A DNA stretch of 64,000 nucleotides from Sphingomonas rhizophila. GTDB lineage: Bacteria > Pseudomonadota > Alphaproteobacteria > Sphingomonadales > Sphingomonadaceae. The DNA lies in the NCBI RefSeq assembly GCF_014396585.1, contig NZ_CP060717.1, positions 744,001 to 808,000 on the forward strand. Reading direction: 5' to 3'. Positions 47,562 to 64,000 of this stretch are shown here, one piece after another. The translations under genes were made by a program, and so were the position numbers. Each line of letters starts with the position of its first letter. Position 1 is the first letter of the stretch. The notes under the pieces were generated by a model that did not search any database, had not been told where the DNA came from, and was given only the letters and a program-made list of their open reading frames with translations.

Positions 47562-47579
47562 CGTGAGAGGTAGTTGGCG

Positions 47580-48728
47580 GTGGCGGTAGTGCGCTCAAGG
47601 GCTTCGGCGGGGAAGGGCGGCGGGCGGCTGGTCGTGATGACGGCCAATAGCGCCTGGAACATCGTCAACTTCCGGTCCGCCCTGGTCGCCGCGTTGATCG
47701 CCAATGGTTTCCGCGTGACCGTGCTTGCGCCGGACGAGCCGGCGACGCGGGCGACGATCGAGGGCCTCGGGGCGTCGTTCGAGCCGATCCCGCTGCAGAG
47801 CTCGGGCATGTCACCGCTGGCGGACCTTCGCCTGTTCCTGTCTTACCTGCGCCATTTCCGGCGACTGAAGCCGTTCGCCATGCTCGGCTACACGGTAAAG
47901 CCGAACATTTATGGCTCCCTGGCCGCTGGCCTTTGTGGCACCCGCGTCATCAACAACATCAGCGGATTGGGGACCGCCTTCCTCCAGGCAGGTACGCTCC
48001 AGAACCTTGTCTCCCGGCTCTACCGAGCGGCGCTTCGGCGGTCGCGGACCGTTGTCTTCCAGAACGGCGATGACCGCGCGTTGTTCGTCGAGCGGGGTCT
48101 GATCCGTGACGGGCAAACGGCACTGCTGCCGGGTTCTGGAATAGACCTCGACCATTTCGCGCCGCGACCGTCCCGAAAGGACGATGGCGACGTTCGCTTC
48201 CTGCTGATCGCGCGATTGCTGTGGGACAAGGGAGTGGGCGAATTTGTCGACGCCGCGCGGTCGCTGCGCGAACGGCATCCGAACGCGAAGTTCGAGTTGC
48301 TCGGCTTCCTGGGTGCCGACAACCGCAGCGCCGTCCCGAAGGCGGTTGTCGAATCGTGGGTCGCCGAGGGGCTTATCGATTATCTCGGGCAAACCGACGA
48401 CGTCCGTGATGCGATCGCGCAGGCGGATTGCGTGGTCCTGCCGTCTTATCGGGAAGGGATGCCGCGCAGCCTGATCGAGGCAGCGGCGATGGGCAAGCCG
48501 GTGATCGCATCCGACGTCCCGGGCTGCCGCGATGCGGTGATCGCTGGCGAGACCGGACTGTTATGCGCTGCCAGATCGGCGGAGGATCTGGCCCGGGCGA
48601 TGGATGAATTCCTCACCATGTGTCCGGACGATCGGGCGGAGATGGGCCGCTCAGCGCGAAAATGGGCGGAGCAGACGTTTGACCAACATCATGTCATCGA
48701 TGCCTATCTTCACGCCTTGCGCGATTGA
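47580..48728 (+). CDS. Glycosyltransferase family 4 protein
   Basis: About 382 residues. The N-domain has NSAWNIVNFRSALVAALIANGFRVTVLAP and NNISGLGTAF. The C-domain has LLIARLLWDKGVGEFVDAARSL, LLGFLGADNRSAVP and the family signature PSYREGMPRSLIEAAAMGKPVIASDVPGCRD with its Glu pair. It transfers a sugar from a nucleotide sugar onto an exopolysaccharide or lipid-linked chain. Starts at 47574 (TTG), 47580 (GTG, best spacing to GAGG) and 47637 (ATG) are all possible. It is the first gene of the polysaccharide locus. Confidence 0.9.
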   Translation: MAVVRSRASAGKGGGRLVVMTANSAWNIVNFRSALVAALIANGFRVTVLAPDEPATRATIEGLGASFEPIPLQSSGMSPLADLRLFLSYLRHFRRLKPFAMLGYTVKPNIYGSLAAGLCGTRVINNISGLGTAFLQAGTLQNLVSRLYRAALRRSRTVVFQNGDDRALFVERGLIRDGQTALLPGSGIDLDHFAPRPSRKDDGDVRFLLIARLLWDKGVGEFVDAARSLRERHPNAKFELLGFLGADNRSAVPKAVVESWVAEGLIDYLGQTDDVRDAIAQADCVVLPSYREGMPRSLIEAAAMGKPVIASDVPGCRDAVIAGETGLLCAARSAEDLARAMDEFLTMCPDDRAEMGRSARKWAEQTFDQHHVIDAYLHALRD

Positions 48729-49525: not shown

Positions 49526-49607
49526 CGCCAAAATCGCCTAAGTCATGGCCACAACGGAACGACCTTGCTAATCAGCCACAAACTGCCCCAGTTTGAGGAG
49601 CGTTTCG

Positions 49608-50321
49608 GTGCGTAACTCATCAGTTCGGATCCACGCCTTCAAGGCCGTCCTCCCCATCATCGCGCTCGGCGCTGCGATGTCAGGGTGTGCCGACAAGCGC
49701 GGCGGACCGATCGCCTACGATGTCGGAAACTTTCGCCCGCCGGACGCGCCGACCGTGGTGGCGCTGGAACAGGGCTACAAGATCGCGCCGCTCGATACGG
49801 TGACGGTGAAAGTCTTCAAGATGGCGGACCTCACCGGCGACTATGAGGTCGACCTGGCCGGCAATATCTCCATGCCGTTGATCGGCGAGGTCAAGGCCAT
49901 CGACATGACCACCGCGCAGCTCGACGATGTGCTGACCAAGCAGCTTGGCGACAAATACCTCGAACGTCCCGACGTCAGCGTTGGCATGAAGGCATCGACG
50001 CGCCGGAGCGTAACGATCGACGGCGCGGTGAAGTCCGCCGGTTCGTTCCCGGTCAACGGCCCGATGACCCTGATGCAGGCGCTGGCACTTGCCGGCGGGG
50101 CCAGCGAGGACGCGAACATCCACCGCGTCGCTATTTTCCGCACGATCGACGGACGGCGTCAGGCGGCGGCGTTCGATCTCGCCGATATCCGGCAGGGGAA
50201 ATCGCCCGACCCGGCCATTTATGCCGGCGACATCGTCGTCATCGACGGGTCGCGGATCAAGGAACTGCAGAAGCGGATCATGAACAACCTGTCGATTCTG
50301 TCGGTTTTCCGGCCCTTCTGA
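49608..50321 (+). CDS. Polysaccharide export lipoprotein (Wza/GumB type)
   Basis: 237 residues from GTG 49608, with GAGGAG 8 bases upstream. Lipobox MSGCADK (Cys about 27). The poly-export domain has YKIAPLDTVTVKVFKM, YEVDLAGNISMPLIGEVKA and ERPDVSVGM, followed by a SLBB unit (VTIDGAVKSAGSFPVNGPMTLMQALALAGG). It forms the outer-membrane export channel for exopolysaccharide and partners the Wzc-like protein encoded next. Confidence 0.95.
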   Translation: MRNSSVRIHAFKAVLPIIALGAAMSGCADKRGGPIAYDVGNFRPPDAPTVVALEQGYKIAPLDTVTVKVFKMADLTGDYEVDLAGNISMPLIGEVKAIDMTTAQLDDVLTKQLGDKYLERPDVSVGMKASTRRSVTIDGAVKSAGSFPVNGPMTLMQALALAGGASEDANIHRVAIFRTIDGRRQAAAFDLADIRQGKSPDPAIYAGDIVVIDGSRIKELQKRIMNNLSILSVFRPF

Positions 50322-50355: not shown

Positions 50356-52554
50356 ATGAATAATGAACTTGCGCGTCAAGGGGACGGTTATCGGCCCTAT
50401 TCCTACCCGCTGGCGCATTTCACGCCGGGGAGCGAGCAGCGTCCCGCCGGCTCTACGCCGCAGCACGGCCTGGATTTTGCCGCGATCTTTCGCGTCATCA
50501 ACGAATGGAAGTGGCTGGTCCTCGGCGTGCTTGCGGCGGGCATCGCGCTTGGTCTGCTTGCAAGCCTGCTGACGACCAAGATGTACCGGGCGTGGGTGAC
50601 GCTGGAAGTGAATCCACCGACGGTGGAAATCCTCGATGAAAAGAGCCGCGAAGTCAGCACGCAGACGTCCTGGGACCTGATGGCGACGCAGGTCGGCCTG
50701 TTGTCGAGCAGGACGCTGGCGCAGCGCGTTGCGGAGGACCTTAACCTGGCCGCCGACCGCAATTTCGTCGGTGCCGACGGCGATGCATCGGCCCGGCTGG
50801 AACGCGCGACGTCACGTGTTGCCGGCGGCCTCAAGGTCGTCGCCCCCGAAGAAGGCCAGTTGATCCGCTTCAGCTACGTGTCGGACTCGCCGGAGATGGC
50901 GGCGAAAATCGCCAACGGCGTGGCTGACGGCTTCATCAAAAATGGTCTCGAACGCCGCTTCGAGGCGTCGGCCTACGCCCGTACGTTCCTTCAGCAGCAG
51001 ATCGCCAAGACCCGCGCGCAGTTGGAGAAGTCGGAGCGTGACCTCGTCACCTACGCGCAGGCCGAAGGCATCATCAACACGTCCTCCGGCGCCCCCGGGA
51101 CTCAGCCGACCGATGCCAATTCACTCCAGGGGGAATCGTTGGTCGCGCTCAACCAGGCGCTTGCCGAAGCGACGGCACGCCGGGTGATGGCCGAAGGAGC
51201 TTACCGCCAGGCCCAGCTTGCCGGAGGGTCTTCGGAAGCCAATGCCAGCACGCAGGCGCTTCGCCAGTCCAAGGCAACGCTCGAGGCGGAATATCAGGAC
51301 AAGCGAACGCTGATGAAGCCGGAGCATCCCGACATGCTCAGCCTCCGCTCGCGAATCGACGAGCTTGACCGGCAGATCGCCAAGGAGCGGTCGACCACCG
51401 CCAGCGCACAGGCGACCACGCTGCTCGGCGCGTACCGGGCGGCGCAATCGGCGGAAAACAACCTTCGTGCCCAGGTCGCCGGCCTGAAGGGATCGGTGCT
51501 CAACCTGCGGGGCCGGAGCATCCGCTACAACATCCTGCAGCGCGAGGTGGACACCAATCGCGGCCTCTATGACGCGCTCTTGCAGCGCTACAAGGCGATC
51601 GGCGTGGGTGGCAGCGTCGGGACCTCGCCGGTGATGATCGTCGATCGCGCCGAGGTGCCGGGCGCGCCGTACAAGCCCAACGTGATGCTCAATCTCTTGC
51701 TGGGAACCGTCGGCGGCCTGGTTGCCGGCATCGCGCTTGCGTTCATGCTCGATGTGCTGAACGACACGATCAAGACGCGCGAGGACGTGCGCAACAAGCT
51801 TGGCCAGGCGTGCCTTGGCGTCATCCCCAAGGAACGCGGCAAGGAAGACCTGCTCGCCCAGCTGGAGGATCCGGCGTCGGCGGTTTCCGAAGCCTATTCT
51901 GCCGTGCTCGCCGCGCTGCGCTTCAGCGCCGAGACTGGGGCGCCCAAGGCGCTCCTCGTCACCAGCGCCAATCCCAACGAGGGCAAGTCGTCGTCCGCCC
52001 TGGCGCTTGCCCAAAGCTACGCGCGCCGCGGCGAAACGGTGCTGCTGATCGATGCCGACCTGCGGCGCCCGGCCTTCAAGGGCGTATCGACCAGCCACGG
52101 CGTCACCGACCTGCTGACCAGCAACGAGTCCATTTCCGCCCATGTCGTTCGCACTCAGCACAGCAACCTGTGGCTGCTGCCGTGCGGACCGATCGCGCCC
52201 AACCCGGCGGACCTGCTGTCGACCGGCCGTTTCGCGGAAATCCTTGAAGAAGCGAAGGAGCATTTCGACCGGGTCGTCATCGACAGTCCGCCGGCGCTTG
52301 GCATCGCGGACGCGACCTTCCTCGCCGCATTCGCCGGCCATGCCATGCTGGTCGTCGAATCCGGCCGCACCCGCACCAACCAAGCACGCGAAGCGGTCGA
52401 GCGGCTTCTTTCATCGGGCGTCCATCTCGTCGGCGTGACGCTGACCAAGTCTGCGGAAGGGGCCAGCCGCTACGGCTATGCGTCCTATCGCTACGGCCAG
52501 GTCGAGGATAAGCGGAAGGAGATCATCATGATTTCCGAACAGGCCGACGCCTGA
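50356..52554 (+). CDS. Wzc-like chain-length regulator and BY-kinase
   Basis: 732 residues. A Wzz region with membrane segments near 55-75 and 450-475 flanks a long coiled-coil periplasmic part with PEHPDMLSLRSRIDELDRQI. The kinase domain has Walker A SANPNEGKSSSALALAQ, Walker A' LLIDADLRRPAFKG and Walker B VVIDSPPALG. The C-terminal tail carries a tyrosine cluster (YGYASYRYG) for autophosphorylation. It controls chain length and export of exopolysaccharide in the inner membrane. The stop overlaps the frame of the next gene. Confidence 0.95.
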   Translation: MNNELARQGDGYRPYSYPLAHFTPGSEQRPAGSTPQHGLDFAAIFRVINEWKWLVLGVLAAGIALGLLASLLTTKMYRAWVTLEVNPPTVEILDEKSREVSTQTSWDLMATQVGLLSSRTLAQRVAEDLNLAADRNFVGADGDASARLERATSRVAGGLKVVAPEEGQLIRFSYVSDSPEMAAKIANGVADGFIKNGLERRFEASAYARTFLQQQIAKTRAQLEKSERDLVTYAQAEGIINTSSGAPGTQPTDANSLQGESLVALNQALAEATARRVMAEGAYRQAQLAGGSSEANASTQALRQSKATLEAEYQDKRTLMKPEHPDMLSLRSRIDELDRQIAKERSTTASAQATTLLGAYRAAQSAENNLRAQVAGLKGSVLNLRGRSIRYNILQREVDTNRGLYDALLQRYKAIGVGGSVGTSPVMIVDRAEVPGAPYKPNVMLNLLLGTVGGLVAGIALAFMLDVLNDTIKTREDVRNKLGQACLGVIPKERGKEDLLAQLEDPASAVSEAYSAVLAALRFSAETGAPKALLVTSANPNEGKSSSALALAQSYARRGETVLLIDADLRRPAFKGVSTSHGVTDLLTSNESISAHVVRTQHSNLWLLPCGPIAPNPADLLSTGRFAEILEEAKEHFDRVVIDSPPALGIADATFLAAFAGHAMLVVESGRTRTNQAREAVERLLSSGVHLVGVTLTKSAEGASRYGYASYRYGQVEDKRKEIIMISEQADA

Positions 52555-53744
52555 GCGCCAATCGCCCCAAACCCGTCGTTCGGCGGCTGCTGGCCGTCGC
52601 CTTTGGCGTTGTCGCTGCATTCGGCGCAATCCGTGTCGCGGCAGTGGAATGGCCGACCAGGCACTCACCGATCAGCGCCGAGGCGATCTGGCCTTCGCAT
52701 CCGGCTGTCCAGTCGAACCGGGCAATGGCGATGATCGGCGCAGCGGCGGCCCAGGGCAAGGCGCCGCCAGAAGCGGCCTTGACTCTTCTCGACCACGTCG
52801 CACGCTCGTCTCCCCTGGCGCCAGAACCTTACCTTGTTCGCGGCGCGACGCAGCAGGCGGCCGGCAATTTCGCCGCGGCCGAAGATGCCTTCGAGGCGGC
52901 CAGACTTCGCGACCCTCGAAACGGCGCTGCCCGCTTCTTCCTGGCGCAGCGTTACCTGTCGTCAGGACGTGCCGACCAGGGCATCGACGAACTCGCGGCC
53001 TTTTCCCGGGTCGTCCCGGAAGCCGGAGAGGCGGTCATTGGACTGCTGGGCGATTTCGCGCGACAGCCGGGCGCCGCCCGGCCGGTTGCGCGCTTCCTCC
53101 GGATGCGGCCCTCCTATGAAGCGGGCGTCATGGACCGCCTGCTTCCCGATCTCGCCAACACCGACGCAATGCTCGCCATTGCGCGCGCCATGCCACGCTC
53201 CAGCCCGCCGCCGCCGTGGCAGGGGTCGCTGGTGACCCGCCTGCTCGCAGCAGGCGATTATGCGCGGGCTCGATTGGCGTGGCGGCAGTTCACCGGCCGC
53301 GATGCCGGCACCTTCCTTTTCAATCCCGGGTTCGCGCCGCTCGACGCCCCGCCGCCCTTCAACTGGACGCTGGCGTCGAACGAGGCTGGGATGGTTGACG
53401 CCCGGCCGGAGGGCGGGATTGATTTCATCTTCTACGGCCGCAGCGAGAATGTGTTCGCCAGCCAGACACTTCTCCTGCCCCCTGGCCGCTACCGCCTGAC
53501 CATCCCGGTTACCATCGAGAAGCAGGGTGGGGCGTCACGCTGGGACATCTTCTGCAATAACGTGCCGACTCCCATCCTGAACCTCCCGCTCGCGGTCGAC
53601 ACAGGCAGCGCCGCCAGCGCCACGTTCGTCGTGCCGAGAGATTGCCCAGTCCAGGCCCTTTCCCTGCGCGGCATCCCGGACGAAACGGGCGCGGGCTTTC
53701 GCGGGAAACTCGGACCGCTGAAGCTGGAAAAGGTGCCGTCATGA
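52551..53744 (+). CDS. TPR-like membrane-anchored protein of the polysaccharide locus
   Basis: About 397 residues. The frame opens at CTG 52551, overlapping the Wzc-like stop as CTGA, and begins with a clear signal anchor (RRLLAVAFGVVAAFGAIRVAAV). The first GTG (52644) lies after that anchor. The middle is TPR-like (AAGNFAAAEDAFEAARLRDPRNGAARFFLAQRYLSSG). The last third is beta-rich (FNWTLASNEAGMVDARPEGGIDFIFYG...LLLPPGRYRLTIPV) with paired Cys. It may help assembly or export of the polymer. A CTG start is rare, and a missing base could hide an ATG. The stop overlaps the next start (ATGA). Confidence 0.8.
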   Translation: MSANRPKPVVRRLLAVAFGVVAAFGAIRVAAVEWPTRHSPISAEAIWPSHPAVQSNRAMAMIGAAAAQGKAPPEAALTLLDHVARSSPLAPEPYLVRGATQQAAGNFAAAEDAFEAARLRDPRNGAARFFLAQRYLSSGRADQGIDELAAFSRVVPEAGEAVIGLLGDFARQPGAARPVARFLRMRPSYEAGVMDRLLPDLANTDAMLAIARAMPRSSPPPPWQGSLVTRLLAAGDYARARLAWRQFTGRDAGTFLFNPGFAPLDAPPPFNWTLASNEAGMVDARPEGGIDFIFYGRSENVFASQTLLLPPGRYRLTIPVTIEKQGGASRWDIFCNNVPTPILNLPLAVDTGSAASATFVVPRDCPVQALSLRGIPDETGAGFRGKLGPLKLEKVPS

Positions 53745-55108
53745 GCGGGCGCGTCCGAGAAGCGGTCGTCCCGCTTTTCCTGTTTGCCTGCCTCCTTCTG
53801 GGAGGAAGCGCGCAGGGCGTCGGCCAACTCCTTCTGCTCGAGTTCGGCGCGATCCTGTTGATCATTGCGGCGACGTGGTCGGGCGGAGCCGGCGCGGCGA
53901 AGACGGAAGCGCGACCGCTGCTCTGGCTGGGGTCCGCATTTCTCCTGCTGCTTGTTCTCCAGCAACTGCCACTCCCGCCGGCAATCTGGGGTGCGCTGCC
54001 AGGTCGAGGGTTCGTCGCGCAGGGCTATGCGCTGCTGGGCCAGGAATTGCCTTGGTTGCCGCTGTCACTGGCACCTTACGACGCATGGCCTGCGCTATTG
54101 CCGGTGCTCGTCCCGCTCGCAGTGTTGGTGGCGATGCGGCGAAAGTCGTGGGTGCGGCCATCGCTGCTGGTGGTTGCCCTGCTCCTGGCGACCTTGCTTG
54201 GCGCCATCCTCGGGGCGCTCCAGATCCAAAGCGGGTGGCAGCAATTCTACCTTTACCGTTACAGTGCCTACGGCCAGCCGACCGGTTTCTTTGCCAACAG
54301 CAACCACATGGGCACGTTGCTATTGGTCGCGATCCCGTTCGCCGTCGCCTTGGTGACCGAGCAATTGCACAAGCGGCGTAGCCGACGGTGGCGGTCTGCG
54401 TTGATCGCGTTCGGGATCTTGGCTGGCCTGGCCCTGCTCGGTGCGCTGGCGCTCAATCGCTCGCTTGCCGTCCTTCTGCTCAGCGCGCCGATCGTGCTGG
54501 CGTCGATTGCCATCGCTGCATCCGGCCGAGCGACATGGCGGAAACCGTTGCTGCTTCTGTCCATCGCACTTTTCGCTGCGATGCTGGTTGCCGGCTTCGT
54601 CCGCCATTCCGCCGGAGCGTCGAAGGAGTCGTCTTTCGCCACCCGCGAAGAAATCTGGACGAGCAGTCTCACGCTGGTGAAGGAATATGGCGTGACCGGT
54701 TCGGGCTTGGGCACCTATCCACGCTTGTATGCTCACGCCGAGGCGCCCGGGTCGGTCGACCTCACCTACGTCAATCATGCCCACAATGATTACCTCGAAC
54801 TGCTGATCGAACTCGGGCTTCCGGGCGCGCTCCTTCTCGCCGCCTTCCTGCCGTGGTGGTCTCGCCAGGCACGACGCGCGTGGGCAGTTCAAGGCAATGA
54901 TCCGTACGCTCAGGCAGCCTCGATTTCGTCTGCGGCGATCCTGCTCCACTCACTGGTCGATTTCCCGCTCCGGACCGCCGCCATCGCCGCGGTCTTCGCG
55001 ATGTGCGTGATGCTTCTTGCGCGCCGGTCCAAGCCGCTGCTCGCCGAGCAGGAGGGGGACCTATGGCCGACGCGGCACCTGACGATCGATCAGCTGGGCG
55101 CTCGGTAG
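53741..55108 (+). CDS. O-antigen ligase/polymerase-like membrane protein (Wzy type)
   Basis: 455 residues with about ten to twelve hydrophobic segments. The signature GSGLGTYPRLY...NHAHNDYLELLIELGLPGALLLA is that of the Wzy/WaaL O-antigen ligase domain. It probably polymerises or ligates repeat units in the inner membrane. Coupled by ATGA to the TPR gene. Its last 19 bp overlap the convergent nucleotidyltransferase gene. Confidence 0.92.
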   Translation: MSGRVREAVVPLFLFACLLLGGSAQGVGQLLLLEFGAILLIIAATWSGGAGAAKTEARPLLWLGSAFLLLLVLQQLPLPPAIWGALPGRGFVAQGYALLGQELPWLPLSLAPYDAWPALLPVLVPLAVLVAMRRKSWVRPSLLVVALLLATLLGAILGALQIQSGWQQFYLYRYSAYGQPTGFFANSNHMGTLLLVAIPFAVALVTEQLHKRRSRRWRSALIAFGILAGLALLGALALNRSLAVLLLSAPIVLASIAIAASGRATWRKPLLLLSIALFAAMLVAGFVRHSAGASKESSFATREEIWTSSLTLVKEYGVTGSGLGTYPRLYAHAEAPGSVDLTYVNHAHNDYLELLIELGLPGALLLAAFLPWWSRQARRAWAVQGNDPYAQAASISSAAILLHSLVDFPLRTAAIAAVFAMCVMLLARRSKPLLAEQEGDLWPTRHLTIDQLGAR

Positions 55109-56169
55109 CGACGGTTGGCGGCCATCGATCGCCACTGACGGGCGGCTTCGGCCTGTTTGAAGCGAAAGCCTCGCCGAAGGAAGAACTGGCTCAGGTGGAT
55201 CGGAAGCGTACCCAGCATTCGCTCGGTCGGCTCATCGACCGCGATCTGACGGAGCGCAATCGCGGCGAGCCAGCGAAGGGTGCGGTCACCCTCCAGCTCG
55301 ACGGACAGGGGCCGCGGCAATGGAAGCCCGAGCAGGCGCTGGCCGAGCAACAGTGCAAGGCCGATACTCCGGCCGGCCCCAAGCTGCAGGGCCGATCGAT
55401 AGAAGGGCTCGATCCTGTCCGGCCCGGCCCGAAGCAGGAGCGCCGTAATGTCTGCCAGCCATTTCAACCGAAACCAGGCGCTGGATGCGCCGTGGACGGC
55501 AAGATAGGCGATCAGGTCAGGACTGGCGATGGTGTCGAGGTGAACGCCAGGCGCGATCTCGACGGACTGACGCGGCGATCGCAGGCCGATGGTCGGGATG
55601 AGCAGCGGCTGGTCGGCGAGGCGGCCGTGAAGATCGACGGGAGGACGACCGTCATCGGCCACCCATACCGATTCCTTCCGAAGCGCATGCCAGGCCAGCA
55701 ACTCGGATAGGCCGGGAGCGGAGGGTTCGGCCAGCCGGTAATCAAGCGATTCTAGAACCGTCGCGGCACCGTCGATGGATGAGGAAGCGACCAAGAGGTC
55801 GATGTCGATGGCGGATTTCAGGGCGATCTGCTCATAGGCCAACTGGCCAAGGGCCAGGCCTTTGACAAACAGGTGGTCGATGCCGGCAGCGCGCAGGGCA
55901 TTGTCGATGGCGCGGCTGGCATCCACAGCCCGGAGGACCGCCACGGCATTGTCGCGGACCGCCCGTTCCAGGGTTGCTCCGATGTCCGGGGGAGCGATCA
56001 CTCCCAGTGGGGCGAGGCCTGCGGCAAGCAGTGCTTCGACCCTGTGCCGACGAGCGATGATTAGAAGATCGTTCCACTCGTCATGTCCCAACGGCCGATG
56101 GTCGAGTGGCTGCGCGCCGATCACCGCGCGGCAGGCGGAAAGCAGCATCGCCATCGCGGGGTTGAACAT
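55090..56169 (-). CDS. NTP_transf_5-type nucleotidyltransferase of the RiPP cluster
   Basis: 359 residues from ATG 56169; the open frame runs further upstream but only as a shadow of B2. Core: IDNALRAAGIDHLFVKGLALGQLAYE and the DxD site in KSAIDIDLLVASSSIDGA, then RPPVDLHGRLAD and a helical C-terminus. This is the pattern of the uncharacterised nucleotidyltransferase family (PF14907-like) that recurs beside B2, kinase and cyclase genes in lasso-type clusters, where it has been suggested as a tailoring enzyme adding nucleotides to phosphorylated peptide. It is divergent from B2, with 96 bp between starts. Confidence 0.8.
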   Translation of the reverse strand: MFNPAMAMLLSACRAVIGAQPLDHRPLGHDEWNDLLIIARRHRVEALLAAGLAPLGVIAPPDIGATLERAVRDNAVAVLRAVDASRAIDNALRAAGIDHLFVKGLALGQLAYEQIALKSAIDIDLLVASSSIDGAATVLESLDYRLAEPSAPGLSELLAWHALRKESVWVADDGRPPVDLHGRLADQPLLIPTIGLRSPRQSVEIAPGVHLDTIASPDLIAYLAVHGASSAWFRLKWLADITALLLRAGPDRIEPFYRSALQLGAGRSIGLALLLGQRLLGLPLPRPLSVELEGDRTLRWLAAIALRQIAVDEPTERMLGTLPIHLSQFFLRRGFRFKQAEAARQWRSMAANRRYRAPS

Positions 56170-56265
56170 GGCGGCCAGCGAGAGAATCCCTATAAGACGC
56201 GAGGTGCCACAGCGTAGCGGCACAATCGGGGCGTCCCCAAGCCCTAACGAAAGGTCGCCGGGTTC

Positions 56266-56688
56266 GTGTCGTTCGCCAACCGCCTCCGCATCGCCGCATC
56301 GTGGGAAGGCAAACGCCGCACCCTCGCGTTGGAAGCGGCAATGGAGCTGTTGCGCGCTTCGGCGCTGGTCCGCTTTGCACCTTTCCGCGTGTCGATTCGT
56401 TCGTCTGCCTCTTCGCTGGGCGAGAGGATGAATCGCGATCCTACCGGAGACGTCCGTTGGGCGATCGACCTTGCAAGCCGCAATCTTCCCTGGCGGATCG
56501 TCTGCTTCCAGCGCGGTCTGGCGGCGCAGGCGATGCTGCGGCGGCGCGGTATCGATGCGCGGCTCCATTATGGCGCCGGCCTGGCCCAAGGCGACTTGGC
56601 GGCGCACGTCTGGGTCACGGTCGGCGAGCGCATCGTCATCGGCGAGGACGAAGCCGCCGATCATCGGTGCATGGCGGTGTTCCCGTGA
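56266..56688 (+). CDS. Lasso-type B2 protein (transglutaminase-like leader peptidase)
   Basis: 140 residues from GTG 56266. The catalytic Cys is at 80 in WRIVCFQRGLAAQAMLRRRGI, the His at 114 in AAHVWVTVG, and acidic residues at 127-129 (GEDE) can complete the triad. This matches the B2 proteases of lasso-peptide clusters, which cut the leader from the precursor after B1 has bound it. The stop overlaps the kinase start as GTGA. It starts 96 bp from the divergent nucleotidyltransferase. Confidence 0.85.
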   Translation: MSFANRLRIAASWEGKRRTLALEAAMELLRASALVRFAPFRVSIRSSASSLGERMNRDPTGDVRWAIDLASRNLPWRIVCFQRGLAAQAMLRRRGIDARLHYGAGLAQGDLAAHVWVTVGERIVIGEDEAADHRCMAVFP

Positions 56689-57599
56689 ACGGGCAGGATG
56701 CGCGCTATGACTATCGGCTTTTCGGGCTCCGCATTCGAAGTGACCGCCGGCTACCCGAACTGGTCACCGCGGACGAATTGGGCAAACCCGACGTCATGGT
56801 GACCAGCATGGCGGCCCGCGGCGCGGTGTCTGAACAACCGCCGACCATCGAGCAGGGGGCCGTCGTTTTCGCGGTCGAAGGCGTTGCCCGCTACGCGATC
56901 GCGGGTGGGCAATCGGTTTCGATGGAGGTGGTGGAGGGAGCGGACGCGCGCGATGTCAGGATGTACCTTCTTGGCTCTGCGCTTGGTTTCCTGATGCAGC
57001 AACGCGGTGTCCTTCCGATCCACGCCAACGCCGTGGTTATCGACGGCCGTGCGGTGTTGTTCATGGGCGGCTCGGGCGAGGGAAAATCGACTCTCGCGTC
57101 GTGGTTTCACCAGTGTGGGATGGAAGTGCTGGCAGACGATGTCGCCGCAATCTCGTTCGACGCATGCGGGCGCCCGGTCGTCCACGCCGGCCTGGCGCGC
57201 TTGCGGTTGTGGGATGACGCGCTGGAGGCAACCGGCCGGACCGCGAGCGACTATCAGCGCTCCTTCGCCGGTGACGAGCAACGTACGAAGTACGACGTCC
57301 CTTTGGAGGGCGCTTCGACCGATCGGAGTTACCCGGTCGCGGCGATCTACGAACTCCGTGCAGGGGAGATGATCGAGGTCGAGCGCCTGCGCGGGTCAGC
57401 CGCATTCGAACGGCTGGTCGCAAACATCTATCGCGGGGCATTCCTCGCAAAGACCGACCCGACTTCGCGCTATTGGATTTCCTCCACAAGACTGGTCGAA
57501 GCGGTCCCTGTCTTCGCGGCCCACCGTCCCTGGAGTCTTGATCGGTTCGACGACAGCGCGGAGGCCATCCTCGCCCACGCGCGGTCTATTACCGCTTAA
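56685..57599 (+). CDS. HPr-kinase-like peptide kinase of the RiPP cluster
   Basis: 304 residues from GTG 56685. The C-terminal HPrK fold has a His (LPIHANAVVI, 113), a P-loop GGSGEGKSTLA (128-138) and the Asp pair in LADDVAAI (151-152), then KTDPTSRYW and related strands. No HPr/PTS genes are present, so it is not a true HPr kinase. Homologues in lasso clusters (for example that of paeninodin) phosphorylate the C-terminal serine of the precursor. The precursor here ends in Ser. Coupled to B2 by overlap; its stop overlaps the stop of the convergent cyclase gene by 4 bp. Confidence 0.85.
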   Translation: MNGQDARYDYRLFGLRIRSDRRLPELVTADELGKPDVMVTSMAARGAVSEQPPTIEQGAVVFAVEGVARYAIAGGQSVSMEVVEGADARDVRMYLLGSALGFLMQQRGVLPIHANAVVIDGRAVLFMGGSGEGKSTLASWFHQCGMEVLADDVAAISFDACGRPVVHAGLARLRLWDDALEATGRTASDYQRSFAGDEQRTKYDVPLEGASTDRSYPVAAIYELRAGEMIEVERLRGSAAFERLVANIYRGAFLAKTDPTSRYWISSTRLVEAVPVFAAHRPWSLDRFDDSAEAILAHARSITA

Positions 57600-59509
57600 G
57601 GGCAGGGGTGACGGTAGTCGCCGCTTGCCATCATCGCTTCGAATTCGACGACATAGGCGGCGAGCGAAAGCGTGAGGGGGATCATTCGCCGGTATAGTGT
57701 CGTCACGCGGTTGCTTCCCCAGTCCCCGCTTGGCCAGTCGGCAATCGCCCGGCGCAGCTTCTGGAAATCGACCAACTCCCGAAGCGTGGGACTGGCCTCG
57801 AACTCATCGACCATGGCCAGAGCCTCGGCCGGGTCGAGATGCTCGTGCCAGTCCGCCGTCTGCTGGCCGCGATAGGGGTTATTCATCACCTCGCGAGGCA
57901 GCATGTCGGCCAGTACGCGCCGCATCATGGGCCGACCCACCCCGTCCTTGATCAACTGCTCGGGCGGAAGACGCAGGCTGAATTCGACGAGTTCCCGGTC
58001 GGCAGTGGGATCGCGTTCGTCGATGCCGAACACTGCCAGGCCACCGTGATGGTTCAGGCTGAAGTCCGACATCTGGATAAGGCGAAGGCGCTGCTCATGG
58101 GTCGATCCTGCAAAGAAAAAGCGATGTTCCCGCTGTTCGGCGTCGGCCCGCACCGCCTGCCATTTCGGCAACGCGAAGCTGATGGATTCGGTCGCGTCGG
58201 CTTGGCGGAAGAGCCGTTCGAATAACGACACGACGGGCGCGGGAAGGACAGACTTGAAACTGCTGAACAGGATCCCCCGCCAGCGAACGGTCGCAATCCT
58301 CCGTGCAGCCAGCGCCTGACGAAGCCACGAAAGCCAGCCGCGTACCTGCCGCCACTCGGCAAGAGATTGCAGCCCGCCATAATGGATCGACAGGTTGCCG
58401 AGCGACCCGGTCAGCATCGTTGTGACGTCGTCGGCTTTCGCCTGCGCATGAATCTGTTGCCACCAGGGTTGGTTGATGGCGTTGCGGTCCGGCTCCTGAA
58501 CGATGCGGGCGTCCCGCCGCAGCATTGCAAGCGCGCCGCCGCTTGCCCGCACAATGCGGTGGGGGATCCCGAGATGATTTGCGGTCAGCGCTGCAAGTCC
58601 GGACTCGTCGGACAGGCGATGCCTTACGCTGTCCCCGTCATAATCCGCTCGTGGTGCTGAGGTGTAGGCGACTGGCCGGTCCTCGGGCCGGCCCTTGCTT
58701 GCGAAAGCCGCGACGCTGCTGCTATCGAAACCCGAGCTGAGGTGGACGCCCAGACGACCGCCGTGGCGCCGTGACATTGCGGTTACCGCCCTGCGCATGA
58801 GGGAGCGATAACGGTCGTCGGCCTCCGCATCGGTCAATGTCAGTAACGAGGTTTCCGGCATCCAATATCGATCGACCTCCAATTGCCCGTCGCGAATACA
58901 GGCGATCTCCCCGCCGAGAAGCGTCGATATTTCCCGGAACGGCGTCCGCCGGGTGACCGCCGCGAAGCCCATCGCCTGTGTCGCAAGCCGTTCGAGGTCG
59001 AATTTCGGCTCGACCAGGCCGCTGGCCAGAATTGCACCCGGCATGGTCGCAAACACCAGCGTGTCCCCAACAAGCGCAAAGTGCATGGCGCGCCGCGACG
59101 CCGGGTCCCGCGCCAACCAGCTCGTTCCGGTCGATCGATCGTGGACTGCGAACGCGAAATCGCCGCGAATCCGCTGGAGGCAGCCTTCGGACCACTTGGC
59201 CCAACACAATAGCAGGAGATCGGAGTCCGCGAGCCGGGACTGTCCCGCTTCCAGTTCCGCAGCCAATTCGGATCGATTGTCGAGGCGGACATCTCCGACC
59301 AGCATTAGGTCGCCGATGATCACCGGTTGGCGATCGTGATCATCCTCGGGAAGTTTGATGGAAAGCGTGCGGCCGAACAGGGCCGATCCGATCCGCGCGG
59401 TAGCGCGTGGGCCGCCTCGATGACCGGGCATCGCACCCAGCATGGCGGCAATCGAATGATCGGTTGGCGTCGTCGGGCCTTGAAAAACGATACCCGCGAT
59501 CGATGTCAT
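57596..59509 (-). CDS. Lasso-type cyclase (asparagine-synthetase-like C protein)
   Basis: 637 residues. The N-terminal part has the glutaminase fold but begins MTSIAG, so the nucleophilic Cys2 of true asparagine synthetases is missing and glutamine cannot be used. The synthetase half has the PP-loop HLSSGFDSSS (258-265), TMLTGSLGNLS and GIDERDPTADRELVEFSLRLP. Lasso C proteins use ATP to adenylate an Asp or Glu side chain so that the core N-terminus can form a macrolactam; the missing Cys fits that role. Third gene of the B1-precursor-C unit, 29 bp after the precursor. Confidence 0.85.
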   Translation of the reverse strand: MTSIAGIVFQGPTTPTDHSIAAMLGAMPGHRGGPRATARIGSALFGRTLSIKLPEDDHDRQPVIIGDLMLVGDVRLDNRSELAAELEAGQSRLADSDLLLLCWAKWSEGCLQRIRGDFAFAVHDRSTGTSWLARDPASRRAMHFALVGDTLVFATMPGAILASGLVEPKFDLERLATQAMGFAAVTRRTPFREISTLLGGEIACIRDGQLEVDRYWMPETSLLTLTDAEADDRYRSLMRRAVTAMSRRHGGRLGVHLSSGFDSSSVAAFASKGRPEDRPVAYTSAPRADYDGDSVRHRLSDESGLAALTANHLGIPHRIVRASGGALAMLRRDARIVQEPDRNAINQPWWQQIHAQAKADDVTTMLTGSLGNLSIHYGGLQSLAEWRQVRGWLSWLRQALAARRIATVRWRGILFSSFKSVLPAPVVSLFERLFRQADATESISFALPKWQAVRADAEQREHRFFFAGSTHEQRLRLIQMSDFSLNHHGGLAVFGIDERDPTADRELVEFSLRLPPEQLIKDGVGRPMMRRVLADMLPREVMNNPYRGQQTADWHEHLDPAEALAMVDEFEASPTLRELVDFQKLRRAIADWPSGDWGSNRVTTLYRRMIPLTLSLAAYVVEFEAMMASGDYRHPCP

Positions 59510-59514
59510 TCAGG

Positions 59515-59535
59515 CCCTCGCGCCGCCGGCGAGGG
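59515..59535 (-). promoter_or_regulatory. Hairpin between precursor and cyclase genes
   Basis: On the minus strand a perfect 7-bp stem (CCCTCGC pairing with GCGAGGG) with a 7-base loop fills most of the 29-bp space between the precursor stop (59539) and the cyclase start (59509). There is no T tract, so it is more likely an attenuator or RNA-stability element that keeps precursor message above enzyme message than a full terminator. Confidence 0.55.
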
Positions 59536-59538
59536 AAG

Positions 59539-59646
59539 TCAGGAACGCGGAGTCTTGGCGTTGTCGGTCCCGCCGCCCTTGCCACTTTCCGCCGAGCCGG
59601 CGGCAATCCGCTTTACTTCGGGTTTCACCCACTGCTTCTTGCCCAT
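59539..59646 (-). CDS. RiPP precursor peptide, 35 residues (lasso-like)
   Basis: ATG 59646 to TGA 59539. GGAG, formed by the last codons of the B1 gene, lies 8 bases upstream, and only two bases separate the B1 stop from this ATG. Basic start MGKKQ, then W6-V-K-P9-E-V11, matching the YxxPxL leader motif bound by B1 proteins, then AAGSAES. The probable core is GKGGGTDNAKTPRS (22-35). Asp28 is the only Asp in the peptide and stands seventh from Gly22 or eighth from Ser21, distances allowed for a macrolactam ring. The usual Thr at -2 is absent (Glu20 if Gly22 is core residue 1). It ends in Ser35, a fit for the kinase. A missed base in the GGCGGCGGG tract would change the core. Confidence 0.7.
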   Translation of the reverse strand: MGKKQWVKPEVKRIAAGSAESGKGGGTDNAKTPRS

Positions 59647-59648
59647 CG

Positions 59649-59954
59649 TCAGGACTCCACTCGATTGCCGGCGGGCGCTGCCTGCCTGGTTAACGCAACC
59701 AGCCCCATGTCGACGAACTGGTCAAGCAAGGATTTCAATTCGGCGGCACATCGTTCCGGATCGACCTCATATTGCTCGGCTAGCCTGGCGCGGAGCTGCG
59801 AGGCGGACTGCGGCTGTTCCAGCATTTTCCAGACATCGGTCGCGACGCTGTTGAACCCGAAACACATGCCGTCATCGACATTCAATGCGACCAGTTCATC
59901 GCCGATGTCGGCTTCCAGTATGTCGCCCCGACGTTGGTATATTGTCCCTTCCAT
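59649..59954 (-). CDS. PqqD-like RiPP leader-binding protein (B1)
   Basis: 101 residues from ATG 59954, with AGGA 9 bases upstream. Fold and motifs match PqqD/lasso B1: GDILEADIGDELVALNVDDGMCFGFNSVATDVWKMLE, then LRARLAEQYEVDPERCAAELKSLLDQFVDMGLV. It binds the precursor leader and brings it to the B2 protease and C cyclase. First gene of the minus-strand unit; its stop is 2 bases before the precursor start. It is divergent from the EpsG-like gene, with 108 bp between starts. Confidence 0.9.
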   Translation of the reverse strand: MEGTIYQRRGDILEADIGDELVALNVDDGMCFGFNSVATDVWKMLEQPQSASQLRARLAEQYEVDPERCAAELKSLLDQFVDMGLVALTRQAAPAGNRVES

Positions 59955-60062: not shown

Positions 60063-61118
60063 TTGATTCCTTACTGGACCCTGTTTGCGCTGTTCGCGGT
60101 AGGCGCGATCCGCCAGGCCCCGATGGAGCTGCAGTTTCGCCGGCCCGGGCTCGGTTTGAAGCTGGCGCTGCTCGCGGTCGCGCTGCTGATCGGGTTGCGG
60201 TACCGCGTCGGCGGCGACTGGCGCTCCTACGTGGACTTTCTCACCAAGGTGGAATTCCGGCCACTAGGGGACGTCGTCGCCCTGAGTGACCCCGGTTACT
60301 CGGTAATCAATTGGCTGGTGGCCTCCGCAGGCCTGGAAATCTGGGCCGTCAACCTTCTCTGCGGACTAATCTTTGTCTGGGGGATGTGGCGGCTGGTTCG
60401 GTTGCAGCCGGAACCGTGGCTGTGCGTCCTGGTTGCGGTTCCATACATCATCATTGTCGTCGCCATGGGCTACACGCGCCAGGCCGTCGCGCTAGGCCTG
60501 CTGATGGCCGCGCTCGCGTCATTCCAGCAAAAGCGGATCGGCCAGTTCGCGCTGCTCGTCGTGATCGCGGTAACCTTCCACCGCTCGGCGATTGTCGTGT
60601 TGCCGATCGGCCTGTTGTCGATCACCCGCAACCGCATCCTGATCGGTGTCATGCTGCTCGCGCTTGCAGCGTCCCTGTACAGCGTGTTCGTCGCGTCGGA
60701 AGTGGACCGGCTCGTCCGCAATTACGTCACCAATCCATACGCCTCGCAGGGTGCCGCCATCCGCGTCGGAATGAGCCTTCCGCCAGCGCTCTTGTTTCTC
60801 GTTTTCAGGGACCGCTTCGGTTTCGACCGCGACGCGCGCAAGCTGTGGACCAACCTCGCGATCACGTCGATCCTGACGGCGTTCGTACTCGCATTGACCT
60901 CTGCGTCGACGGCCGTTGATCGGCTTGCCCTCTACCTGCTGCCCTTGCAGATGGTGATGCTGTGCCGATTGCCACTCGCCTTCGCGAAGGGTGATCGGGA
61001 CGCGCAACTCATTCGGGCCGGCGTCGTGATCTATCTGGCCTCGGTGCAGTTCGTGTGGCTCAACTACGCGGCTTACGCCCATTATTGGGTGCCGTACCAA
61101 TTCTATCCGTTGTTCTAG
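60063..61118 (+). CDS. EpsG-family polysaccharide polymerase-like membrane protein
   Basis: 351 residues with about ten hydrophobic segments. GLRYRVGGDWRSYVDFL and MGYTRQAVALGLLMAALASF followed by FHRSAIVVLPIGLL are EpsG family signatures. It is thought to polymerise exopolysaccharide repeat units in the inner membrane. The TTG start has GGGGA upstream. Its stop overlaps that of the convergent asparagine synthetase by 4 bp. Confidence 0.88.
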   Translation: MIPYWTLFALFAVGAIRQAPMELQFRRPGLGLKLALLAVALLIGLRYRVGGDWRSYVDFLTKVEFRPLGDVVALSDPGYSVINWLVASAGLEIWAVNLLCGLIFVWGMWRLVRLQPEPWLCVLVAVPYIIIVVAMGYTRQAVALGLLMAALASFQQKRIGQFALLVVIAVTFHRSAIVVLPIGLLSITRNRILIGVMLLALAASLYSVFVASEVDRLVRNYVTNPYASQGAAIRVGMSLPPALLFLVFRDRFGFDRDARKLWTNLAITSILTAFVLALTSASTAVDRLALYLLPLQMVMLCRLPLAFAKGDRDAQLIRAGVVIYLASVQFVWLNYAAYAHYWVPYQFYPLF

Positions 61119-63074
61119 CGCGCCTGCTCGCCGAGCCACCCCTGGAACATCAATACAGACCATAATGCGGGTGTGAGGTCGCGGCGCCCTGACTGGTGCA
61201 AGGCCCAGGCCCGGGCCACTCGCTTTTCATCGAAATGCCCTGAGCGCCGAAGTGAGTCCGGGCTGATCAAATCCTCGGCCCAGGGCTTGAGCGGTCCGCG
61301 CAGCCATTGACCGACCGGAATCGCAAAACCCGCTTTCGGCCGGTCGAACAGTTCTGACGGCAAATGCCGGGCGACCAGTTTGCGGAGAAGCGACTTGCCT
61401 TCGCCGCCGCGGATTTTCATGGCGAGGGGCAGGCGGGCAGCGAAGGCCGACACGCGGTGGTCGAGGAAGGGTACGCGCGTTTCCAGGCTGACGGCCATCG
61501 CCGCTCGGTCGACCTTGCACAAGATGTCGTCCGGCAAATAACTCAGCGCGTCGGTCGCCATGAGCTGCTGTTCGACACTGACGTGCGGGGGCAGGGGATC
61601 TGCCCGAACGAGCTGTCGCAATTTGCAGCGGGATTGCCGATTCCCGACCATTGATCGAGGAAGCCCGCCATCAGGCCGTCCAGGTCACGGGCACCTGCCA
61701 ATGATGCGAACATGCCTTGTACGCGACTGCCGAGGTGCGGCGCGCGTTCGCTTCGCGAGGCAAGGTCGATGAGGCCCTGCCAAGCCGTCGACGGGATGGT
61801 TGCGGCGACGCTTCCCACTGCCGTCCGAACAGGAGCGGGCAGGCGGCGCGCGTATCGCCAAAGCCTGGCGACAGTCAGGTAGCGGTTGTAGCCCCCGAAC
61901 AATTCGTCGCCGCCATCTCCCGAGAGGGCGACCTTGACGTGTTGCCGGGCGAGCTTGCTGACGAGGAACGTCGGGATTTGCGAGGAGTCGGCAAAGGGTT
62001 CGTCATAGATGGTCGGCAGGTCGGGTATGACCGCAAGCGCTTCATCCGCATCGACATAATGCTCGGTGTGTTCGGTGCCCAGATGGGCGGCCACCCGCCG
62101 CGCGAAGTCGGCCTCGTCGAAACCGGCTTCGGCGAAACCAAGCGTGAAGCTTCGCACCCGGCCCGGCGCGATTGCCTGGTAGAGCGCGGTCACGGTCGAG
62201 GAGTCGATGCCGCCGGACAGGAAAGAACCGACCGACACGTCCGCCACCGATTGGCCGCCGATCGATTGCCGGAGCACGGCGTCGAGACCTTCCAGCGCCT
62301 CCGCCTCGTCCTCGATCGGATCGCGAAGTCCTTCGACGATCTGGTCGCGATAGGACCAGTAACGCTTCACCGTCACGCCTGGACCTGGCGCGGTTTCGGT
62401 CGGAGCGGCGTGGCAAGGGTGCTCGTTGGCGCGGCGGGTGGCTGTAAGGACGTGCCCGGGGGCAGTTTGAAAATGCCCTCGTGGATCGACATGGGCGCCG
62501 GAATGTAGCCGCGGGCGCAAAGCGCGTGGATCGCCGGACGATTCAGCGAATTGTCGAAACCTGCGTGGACGCGAACGGCCTTCAATTCCGATGCGAAGAC
62601 AAAATCCGTCCCGACCCAGCCGTAATAGAGGGGCTTCTCGCCAAAGCGGTCGCGGACGAGCCTGACCGTGCGCTCGCGCGCGTCCCACAGGGCAAAGGCG
62701 AACATCCCGATCAGCTTGTCGAGCGTCCCTTCGATCCCCCACCGCGCAATCGCCTCGACCAGTGTTTCGGTATCGCTGTGGCCACGCCATTCGATCCCGC
62801 CTGACCGGTCGAGCTCGGCTCGGACAGCCCCATGATTGTAGATCTCGCCGTTGTAGCAGAGCGTGAAACGCCCGTCGGCGCTCACCATCGGCTGGTGTCC
62901 TGCGGCCGACAGGTCGACAATCGCCAGTCGGCGGTGGACGAAAGCCACCGGATTTTCGCTGTCCGCCCAGATGCCGTGATCGCCCGGACCGCGATGGGCA
63001 ATGCTGATACCCATTCGCCGTAATAATGCGGTGTCGCGGCTCGACGGCCCGATGATGCCTGCGATGCCGCACAT
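61115..63074 (-). CDS. Glutamine-dependent asparagine synthetase/amidotransferase, frame interrupted twice
   Basis: About 653 residues after two repairs: one G at 62455-62457 (KLPPG|HVLTATRR) and one base between about 61570 and 61650 (before LRQLVRADPLPPHVS). It begins MCGIAGIIG, so the glutaminase Cys2 is present, with RLAIVDLSAAGHQPM and YNGEIYNH. The synthetase half has FLSGGIDSSTVTAL, ALSGDGGDELFGGYNRY and YLPDDILCKVDRAAMAVSLETRVPFLDHRV. In polysaccharide loci such enzymes are believed to amidate a sugar or lipid intermediate. It differs from the cyclase at 57596 by keeping Cys2. The ABC transporter gene ends 6 bp upstream of it. Confidence 0.88.
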
Positions 63075-63080
63075 GACCGG

Positions 63081-64000
63081 TCAGTCGGCTCCCCGCCACC
63101 GTTCCGGACCTACGACCTGTTCGTAGCTGCCCTGGTCGGCGATGCGCCCATCAACCAGCCGGTAAATGCGGTCGCAATTGGCGACGGTCGAAAGGCGATG
63201 CGCAATAAGGATGATCGTCAGGTCACTCGACAGGCCCGCGACCGCGTCCATCACTGCCGCCTCGGTCTCGTCATCAAGGGCGCTGGTTGCCTCGTCGAGC
63301 ACCAGCAGGCTGGCGCGCTTGTAAAGCGCGCGGGCGATGCCGATGCGTTGCCGCTGTCCGCCGGAAAGGCGAATGCCCCGCTCCCCACAAGCGTTTCCAG
63401 TCCGTCGGGAAGTGTGTTCACGAAATCGCCTAGTCCAGCCTTCCGGGCCGCATCCCGGACGCGATCTTGATCGACGTCCTCGTCCGCAAGTCCGAATGCG
63501 ATGTTCGACGCAATGCTGTTGTCGGTGAGGAATATCGCCTGTGGAACATGGGCGATCTGAGCCTGCCAGCGGGCGAGGTTTTCCCAGCCGATCGTCTCAC
63601 CGTCGATCGCCAATCGACCGCGTTCGGGCTGAAGCAGGCCCATGATGAGGTCGACTGTCGTGCTCTTGCCGCTGCCCGTCTTGCCGATCAGTCCGATCCG
63701 CTCGCCCTTGCGGATGACGAGGTCGATGTCGCTCAGGGCGTTCTGCCCGCGGCCATATCCGAACGTCACGCCTTCCAGCGCAATCGACCGTTCGAAAGGC
63801 TCGACAACCGCTCCGGGTTGCAGCCGGACGGTCGGATCGATCGGCGTGTCGAGCAGGCTGACGACCCGGTGCAGGCTTTCGTTGTGAAGCGACGTGCCGG
63901 ACCACCCCTGGTACACCGCCTGGATCATCGGCAGCAATCGCTGCGCGCCCAGCGCCAGCGCACCGAGAACGGGAATGGCGGCGATCACTCCGCCCTCCCG
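63081..64000 (-). CDS. ABC exporter (fused membrane and ATPase domains), cut by the window end and frame interrupted
   Basis: The gene enters from beyond 64000. The visible part has the last membrane stretch ([25 protein letters not shown]), then Walker [18 protein letters not shown]-loop [12 protein letters not shown], signature [16 protein letters not shown], Walker [17 protein letters not shown] and H-loop IAHRLSTV. One base is missing in the four-C run (minus-strand G) at 63383-63386, between LETLVG and ERGIRLSGG. It belongs to the MsbA/McjD-like exporter group, so it could flip a lipid-linked oligosaccharide or export the nearby RiPP. Position after asparagine synthetase slightly favours the polysaccharide role. 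Confidence 0.88.

Follow-up and report, generated by a model that had tools for sequence, protein, structure and literature searches.

The stretch analysed here, called the window below, comprises 64,000 nucleotides of Sphingomonas rhizophila (contig NZ_CP060717.1) and carries at 55090-59954 a set of six genes, N, B2, K, C, A and B1, flanked by a Wzy_C gene and an EpsG gene. The first-pass annotation had described these six genes as a lasso-like cluster for a ribosomally synthesized and post-translationally modified peptide (RiPP) between Wzy-like and EpsG-like genes, and both the set and its placement are confirmed, since every reading frame is intact, the families match and the flanking genes match PF04932 and PF14897. 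The start codons of the six genes, listed below, were chosen by us.

55090-56169, minus strand: N, NTP_transf_5 protein predicted to fold as a nucleotidyltransferase; D122 and D124 unchanged across 36 aligned rows
56266-56688, plus strand: B2, transglutaminase-like peptidase that would remove the leader; Cys80 and His114 unchanged across 21 aligned rows
56685-57599, plus strand: K, HprK-like kinase; H113, G131, G133, K134, S135, D151 and D152 invariant in 26 rows
57596-59509, minus strand: C, lasso-cyclase-type asparagine-synthetase homologue; Cys2 absent, ATP motif LSSGFDSS present
59539-59646, minus strand: A, 35-residue precursor with leader MGKKQWVKPEVKRIAAGSAE and core SGKGGGTDNAKTPRS; predicted cut after AE, predicted ring Ser1-Asp8, C-terminal Ser15
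59649-59954, minus strand: B1, PqqD-like RiPP recognition element; GMCFGFN, with Cys where solved lasso B1s have Tyr

The precursor gene had been proposed as an unannotated reading frame. Its ATG lies two bases past the B1 stop codon, and a precursor profile (E <= 0.01) matched 28 of the 71 genus genomes, including G327 without AGxAE; it is therefore more than a chance reading frame, an explanation that we rejected, and the proposed precursor proved to be a conserved ORF in relatives. The leader motif [Y/W]xxPx[LVI] is present as W6xxP9xV11, with Trp at -15 under the proposed cut. If the leader ends after AE, Trp is at -15 in 34/34 AGxAE-type precursors, likewise in PbaA (PMC13381572), though Trp and AGxAE were built into both the profile and the search pattern, so that their presence in all 34 is partly selection. 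These 34 precursors are 31 from the genus and three from other genera; L140 (a near-copy of L139), L149 and L150 (further G204 copies) and L144 and L148 (profile matches without AGxAE) were left out. With the cut after AGxAE, Asp or Glu stands at core position 8 or 9 in 33 of the 34, whereas 20,000 shufflings of the cores averaged 4.8 and never exceeded 14. The core of the window would then consist of SGKGGGTD and the tail NAKTPRS, with Asp8 inside the 7-9 range of lasso ring acids. The sole exception, G304, has Gln8 and no acid, and its neighbouring cyclase is of another type. Moreover, the last residue is Ser in 33/34 precursors (the window ends in RS), and the C-terminal Ser is the reported site modified by PadeK, ThcoK and SyanK (PMC9266682). 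Core residue 1 is Ala in 13, Ser in 8, Asn in 6, Leu in 3 and Phe, Val, Ile or Gly in one each, so that 28/34 have Ala, Ser, Asn or Gly; reported first residues include Gly, Cys, Ser and Ala, as well as the Asn of metanodin (PMC12670498). The core sequences vary widely.

Alternatively, the ring might close on the invariant Glu of AGxAE, if the leader were cleaved upstream of the proposed site by 7 or 8 residues; this would place an acid at 7-9 in 34/34 precursors, by selection. It is very unlikely, because Trp would fall at -7 or -8, away from the -15 to -17 at which Tyr or Trp is found in characterised leaders (PMC13381572; PMC10368454), and the acid at 8 or 9 in 33/34 would be left unexplained. 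We set it aside for its leader geometry.

The synthetase C starts with MTSIAG and thus lacks Cys2, while it is full length and retains LSSGFDSS. Cys2 is the nucleophile of glutamine-hydrolysing asparagine synthetase. C scored 170.6 bits (5.6e-50) with the lasso cyclase model NF033535, below its curated cut-off of 525, and 124 bits (8.8e-36) with the asparagine synthase model, below the cut-off of 267. An AsnB-type control from L085 scored 161 bits with the lasso cyclase model, close to the 171 of C, so that the lasso score alone cannot separate the two; C is set apart from AsnB by the asparagine synthase score (124 versus 439 bits, the control being above the cut-off) and by the missing Cys2. 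In the tree, three AsnB rows form a separate group (100/100). The annotated cyclase-like synthetase without Cys2 is thereby upheld, and C as an ordinary asparagine synthetase was rejected by profile scores, missing Cys2 and tree. Neither of the two outcomes that the first-pass annotation had named as refuting its reading, on the synthetase and on the precursor, was therefore found. It is hardly credible that C serves the polysaccharide locus as an ordinary amidotransferase and that the small ORF has nothing to do with it: the same locus has a separate asparagine-synthetase gene (61115-63074) and the control almost equals C in the lasso model, but C has the features just given, and relatives retain the precursor together with a nearby synthetase. 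In 20 further genus loci fetched around precursor matches, a synthetase was near the precursor in 19. By BLAST against 12 references, 18 of these were nearest the cyclases of the AGxAE group, one the Gln group and none the two AsnB rows, though their profile scores were low; no MCG was found within the first 80 residues of the 19. A scan of genome contigs with C gave three loci, one of which (L033) carries the precursor of G302.

B1 matched PF05402 (PqqD) at 58.1 bits (cut-off 23.4), and it forms, as in lasso clusters, a discrete PqqD-like protein beside a Cys/His B2. With the lasso PqqD model NF033536 it gave 2.6e-13 and 49.9 bits, below the cut-off of 80. The models of the HPr-rel-A system (TIGR04352/TIGR04353) also scored below their cut-offs (HprK_rel_A, 26.7 of 200 bits; PqqD_rel_X, 24.9 of 35 bits). 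At leader position -2, where lasso precursors are expected to have Thr, the window has Ala. Thr(-2) is no absolute requirement of lasso peptides, because Duan et al. showed Ile(-2) and cited predicted Ile, Val or Ala at this position (PMC10368454). They cite a Tyr of the recognition element as a suspected contact of Thr(-2), and note that this Tyr is not conserved in their Ile(-2) group. At the column that we took for this Tyr, Cys (GxC[FY]) was present in all 15 aligned B1s of the AGxAE group and in none of four B1s of the Gln group; Tyr stands there in three solved lasso B1s (TbiB1, TfuB1 and the lasso B1 of entry 9x90) and, as judged by eye from the DNA given in PMC10368454, in BsfB1. The Cys fits an altered -2 pocket for Ala(-2), as a correlation only. 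The leader ending in Ala(-2)-Glu(-1), together with Cys for Tyr in B1, is new here. In other sphingomonad kinase-type clusters (L063 12160-12285, L062 13192-13341 and L067 13985-14137), the precursors permit a reading with Thr at -2 and an acidic residue at 7-9, so that several leader types coexist in one family.

The remaining three enzymes also agree with the first-pass annotation. B2 scored 66.9 bits with NF033537 (cut-off 33), and its Cys80 and His114 are the proposed pair, with no third residue of the triad assignable from the 21-row alignment. K has the His, the G-rich GKS loop and the DD of HprK-like kinases, in agreement with its weak HprK-type matches. N matched PF14907 at 124.3 bits (cut-off 31.2), and K103-G104 is as invariant as D122 and D124. 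Its AlphaFold model (pLDDT 96.3) retrieved by Foldseek MenT1 (entry 8an5, E 3.7e-4), ANT(2'')-Ia (5.7e-3) and, weakly, FKRP (0.34), a phospho-ribitol-transferring enzyme. These are general nucleotidyltransferase matches; N is longer than these proteins and only partly covered (TM score by query 0.37 or less), and a PDB sequence search with N gave no relative (best E 0.49). In the pseudomycoidin cluster, the hexoses on phosphorylated Ser are attributed to PsmN, although its authors did not exclude that it acts as a nucleotidyltransferase (PMC9266682). From the predicted fold, the invariant residues and this report, N is expected to add some group to the phosphate.

The set lies in an exopolysaccharide locus, whose other genes are as follows.

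47574-48728, plus strand: glycosyltransferase (Glycos_transf_1) of the polysaccharide locus
49593-50321, plus strand: Wza-like export protein (Poly_export, SLBB)
50356-52554, plus strand: Wzc-like chain-length protein (Wzz, GNVR, AAA_31)
52644-53744, plus strand: tetratricopeptide repeat (TPR) protein, which sits between Wzc and Wzy in relatives
53642-55108, plus strand: Wzy_C protein (PF04932, O-antigen ligase family), longest frame; the real start is probably further downstream than 53642
60063-61118, plus strand: EpsG-family protein (PF14897)
61115-63074: separate asparagine-synthetase gene of the polysaccharide locus, split by frame changes
63081-64000, minus strand, continuing into L100: ABC exporter gene, split by frame changes

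The frame changes in the last two genes may be true decay or assembly errors, the genome being 93.95% complete. The gene order of the window recurs in L073 (mirrored), L074 and L086.

Across the genus, N (E <= 1e-8) was found in 33 of 71 genomes. N and precursor occurred together in 25 genomes, the precursor only in three and N only in eight (Fisher p = 3.5e-9), and four of these eight carry a second precursor type. N and a Wzc match lie on one contig in 28 of the 33 N genomes, with a gap of 2.5-3.0 kb in 23, 13-23 kb in four and 175 kb in one; less clean among the 28 are G336 (23 kb), with a different Wzc type at 39% identity, and G341, whose nearest Wzc piece is a contig-end fragment at 46%. 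This 2.5-3 kb spacing of N and Wzc in 23/28 genomes is likewise new here. Genomes with this Wzc type had N in 28/44 cases, versus 5/27 of the others (p = 2.4e-4). Within 10 kb of N, the 33 N loci contain Wzy in 25, TPR in 24, Wzc in 23 and Wza in 21, some loci stopping at contig ends. The conservation of the precursor and of its ring-position residue and this synteny of N with Wzc-Wzy are, like the gene content and motifs, read directly from the genomes, and in related bacteria part of the pathway often stays next to the genes of the sugar coat. The clearest exception to the polysaccharide synteny is L071 (G325), where the set lies about 175 kb from Wzc and has an ABC exporter match about 2 kb from N.

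The other pathway genes are less fixed. Among the 30 genomes with strong N (the 33 minus three weak N matches), B1 was found in 29, B2 in 30 and a precursor of either type in 29, the exception being G342; at the cut-offs used, there was a single B1 match in 29 and a single B2 match in all but G332, which has two. B1 and B2 are not confined to genomes with N, occurring in 13 and 17, respectively, of the 38 that lack it. Of the 29 genomes tabulated, nine have B2 and four have B1 on the contig of N but more than 20 kb from it. In some genomes the pathway is dispersed, with N and K and/or B2 beside Wzc-Wzy (L082, L083, L089-L095) and precursor and synthetase elsewhere (L125-L129, L131, L135-L141); in G360 the latter lie up to 640 kb from N.

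Taken together, we propose with a probability of about 0.72 that the product of the six genes is a class II lasso-type peptide, phosphorylated and in the service of the surrounding exopolysaccharide locus. In outline, the small cluster would probably knot a short peptide into a lasso shape and phosphorylate its end. The catalytic steps and their order, including phosphorylation and the group added by N, are carried over from characterised relatives. B1 would bind the WxxPxV leader and pass the precursor to the other enzymes. K would phosphorylate the C-terminal Ser15, and B2 would cleave after Ala(-2)-Glu(-1). C would then activate Asp8 with ATP and close an eight-residue ring with Ser1, leaving NAKTPRS as the tail. 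Finally, N would modify the phosphoserine with a sugar, as reported for PsmN, or with a nucleotidyl group. The link to the cell surface or polymer, which the first-pass annotation had suggested from the setting, is in its genomic part stronger than could be seen from the window, because of the synteny of N with Wzc and Wzy; a surface or polymer role of the product itself has nearer even odds and is the least secure part of our proposal. A more speculative version, a long shot, is a peptide branch of exopolysaccharide assembly, in which N would link the phosphoserine end of the lasso to a sugar phosphate, so that the polymer or a lipid carrier would bear the knotted peptide.

Several observations weigh against the proposed lasso peptide or complicate a simple account of it. 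Besides the subthreshold scores of B1 and C with the lasso models and the Ala at -2, the AGxAE-group cyclases are not one clean group in the tree (two changes), with L067 and L063 on long branches. Of seven distant genus synthetases searched with NCBIfam, all below cut-off, four matched best asparagine synthase, two lasso cyclase and one the albusnodin/ikarugamycin cyclase. K has weak HprK-type matches only, with no full-length family match in the profile search. A cut one residue later satisfies the ring rule equally (33/34), and the invariant Glu of AGxAE would suit a much earlier cut. In a related cluster, BsfK phosphorylates Ser3 and not the C-terminus (PMC10368454), and in the account of Popov et al. 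the deletion of lppN brought no change in its host (PMC13381572). As to the polysaccharide locus, 16 of the 44 genomes with this Wzc type have no N, so that the locus does not need N, and among the 25 genomes that combine N with an A3-type precursor, nine have their closest precursor on the contig of N but more than 20 kb (27-240 kb) away. Common descent alone could keep N beside Wzc-Wzy; in our view a working link is more likely, because the other pathway genes scatter while N stays.

The genomes without N and the distant precursors also speak for the strongest competitor, a conventional free lasso peptide, such as an antibacterial or a signal, for which the polysaccharide setting would be incidental and the kinase and N generic tailoring enzymes. 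We rate it somewhat below even. Its product would be expected to have widely varying cores under diversifying selection, and this is what the precursors show; five genomes carry two precursors (G311, G324, G354 and G360, with one N each, and G321 without N), and gain and loss in Bacilli are patchy according to Popov et al. (PMC13381572). On the other hand, N remains 2.5-3.0 kb from Wzc in 23/28 genomes while other parts move, and no exporter, immunity or isopeptidase gene is among the six; the nearest ABC exporter gene lies past the EpsG and asparagine-synthetase genes and is frameshifted in the window.

Comparison with known systems places the proposed lasso set closest to kinase-tailored clusters. 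Paeninodin and pseudomycoidin clusters (PadeK, PsmK, PsmN) share A, B1, B2, C, an HprK-like kinase, the WxxP leader and the C-terminal Ser, and pseudomycoidin also shares the nucleotidyltransferase-like PsmN (PMC9266682). The window differs from them in Ala(-2)-Glu(-1) instead of Thr(-2), in Cys for Tyr in B1, in having no transporter among its six genes and in the dispersal of the genes in some relatives; moreover, it comes from a sphingomonad, while paeninodins are confined to Bacillota according to Popov et al. (PMC13381572). The Bsf cluster of Bradymonas sediminis shares A, B1, B2, C, K, N and a non-Thr residue at -2 (PMC10368454), and its authors report precursors with Ile or Val at -2 from Sphingomonadales, each accompanied by a kinase or phosphotransferase (PMC10368454). 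However, BsfK acts on Ser3, BsfA ends in Asp and Bsf has an ABC transporter, whereas the window has Ala(-2), a C-terminal Ser and the polysaccharide setting. By sequence, then, the set behaves like kinase-tailored lasso clusters and on most tests belongs with them, departing at Thr(-2) and in the curated lasso PqqD score.

A polysaccharide setting has also been reported in Bacilli, whose capsule loci contain linear polyphosphorylated peptide (LPP) clusters with paeninodin-like ones adjacent to them; shared features are a recognition element, an HprK kinase and an NTP transferase (Popov et al., 2026, PMC13381572); in the strain of that study the cluster was up-regulated together with an exopolysaccharide gene, printed espG. 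The six-gene set of the window is real but less unusual than the first-pass annotation implied, since the same enzymes occur in Bsf and pseudomycoidin (PMC10368454; PMC9266682) and capsule embedding is published for Bacilli (PMC13381572). LPP clusters use a SipW-like peptidase and no cyclase, whereas the window has B2 and C and no such peptidase among the six genes, and we rejected LPP membership. The product might still be linear, a polyphosphorylated peptide of the LPP kind released from its leader, in which case C would have another function or none. The shared LPP enzymes and capsule setting, and the sister clusters described below, which mostly have no acid at the ring position and whose C may not form a normal lactam, lend it some weight; it is nevertheless improbable, because C is full length with its ATP motif, such a synthetase is near the precursor in 19/20 newly fetched genus loci, the acid at 8 or 9 is retained in 33/34 and the six genes include B2 but no SipW-like peptidase. 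A further paper, on lasso peptides and the use of phenanthrene (PMC11006600), concerns a benenodin-type precursor and has no bearing on the cluster of the window. The biological role of paeninodin and LPP is stated as unknown in the Discussion of PMC13381572. The genus offers a natural test of the role of such peptides, with 30 strong-N genomes in which N is mostly beside polysaccharide genes, and the mostly single B1 and B2, in some genomes far from the precursor, add to this value.

The second precursor type, approximately WxxPxLxRLGxxxDVA followed by the core, was found with a full-length profile (A4) in 38 of 397 family genomes and 16 of 96 genera. Among its 28 loci (L151-L178), most of them 3 kb long, 27 have a C-type synthetase next to the precursor, the remaining one stopping at the end of its contig; B1 accompanies the precursor in 27, B2 in 14 and K in 11. 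Gln8 was present in 25/28, a count biased by A4, which itself contains Gln8; a leader-only profile (A8) was therefore made from the leaders of the sequences found with A4, and it matched 46 of 397 genomes. From its 53 matches 43 distinct cores were read; L169 and L172 were also read (both Gln8), L218 had no pattern and seven weak matches were left out. Gln8 was present in 33 of the 43 cores, compared with a mean of 3.3 and a maximum of 12 in shuffled cores; two had Gln9 only, six an acid at 8 or 9 without Gln8 and two neither, and 24 cores had no acid anywhere. Gln thus occupies the acid position of the relatives, which is a further feature new here.

Gln8 goes with the cyclase type and not with the leader type, because L143 (G304, contig C1, precursor near 619647) has an AGxAE leader, the core GPQRAGPQATGVKS with Gln8 and no acid, and a cyclase of the Gln-group type (54% identity; 709 bits versus 141 for the AGxAE group). 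No lasso chemistry with ring closure on Gln is known to us. Our search of paper listings and a term search of a 2026 review (PMC13352647) found no report of Gln at the ring position, though the sister peptides themselves may be in print, because Duan et al. list Sphingomonadales precursors with Ile or Val at -2 in their supplement (PMC10368454). In these sister clusters, not in the window, the cyclase system might use Gln8 for ring closure, either through transamidation or once it has been deamidated. We consider this doubtful; if true, it would be a new ring-closing chemistry, and the Gln family would test what the cyclase can do. All nine family synthetases compared were nearest Gln-group cyclases, and one of these nine loci, L168, has Glu8, so that Gln and Glu may be exchangeable at position 8. 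The sister-cluster precursors are located as follows, with further ones in L151-L178 and L179-L223.

L068, 12564-12686: sister-cluster precursor
L069, 12650-12766: sister-cluster precursor
L070, 7285-7410: sister-cluster precursor
L085, 7355-7477: sister-cluster precursor

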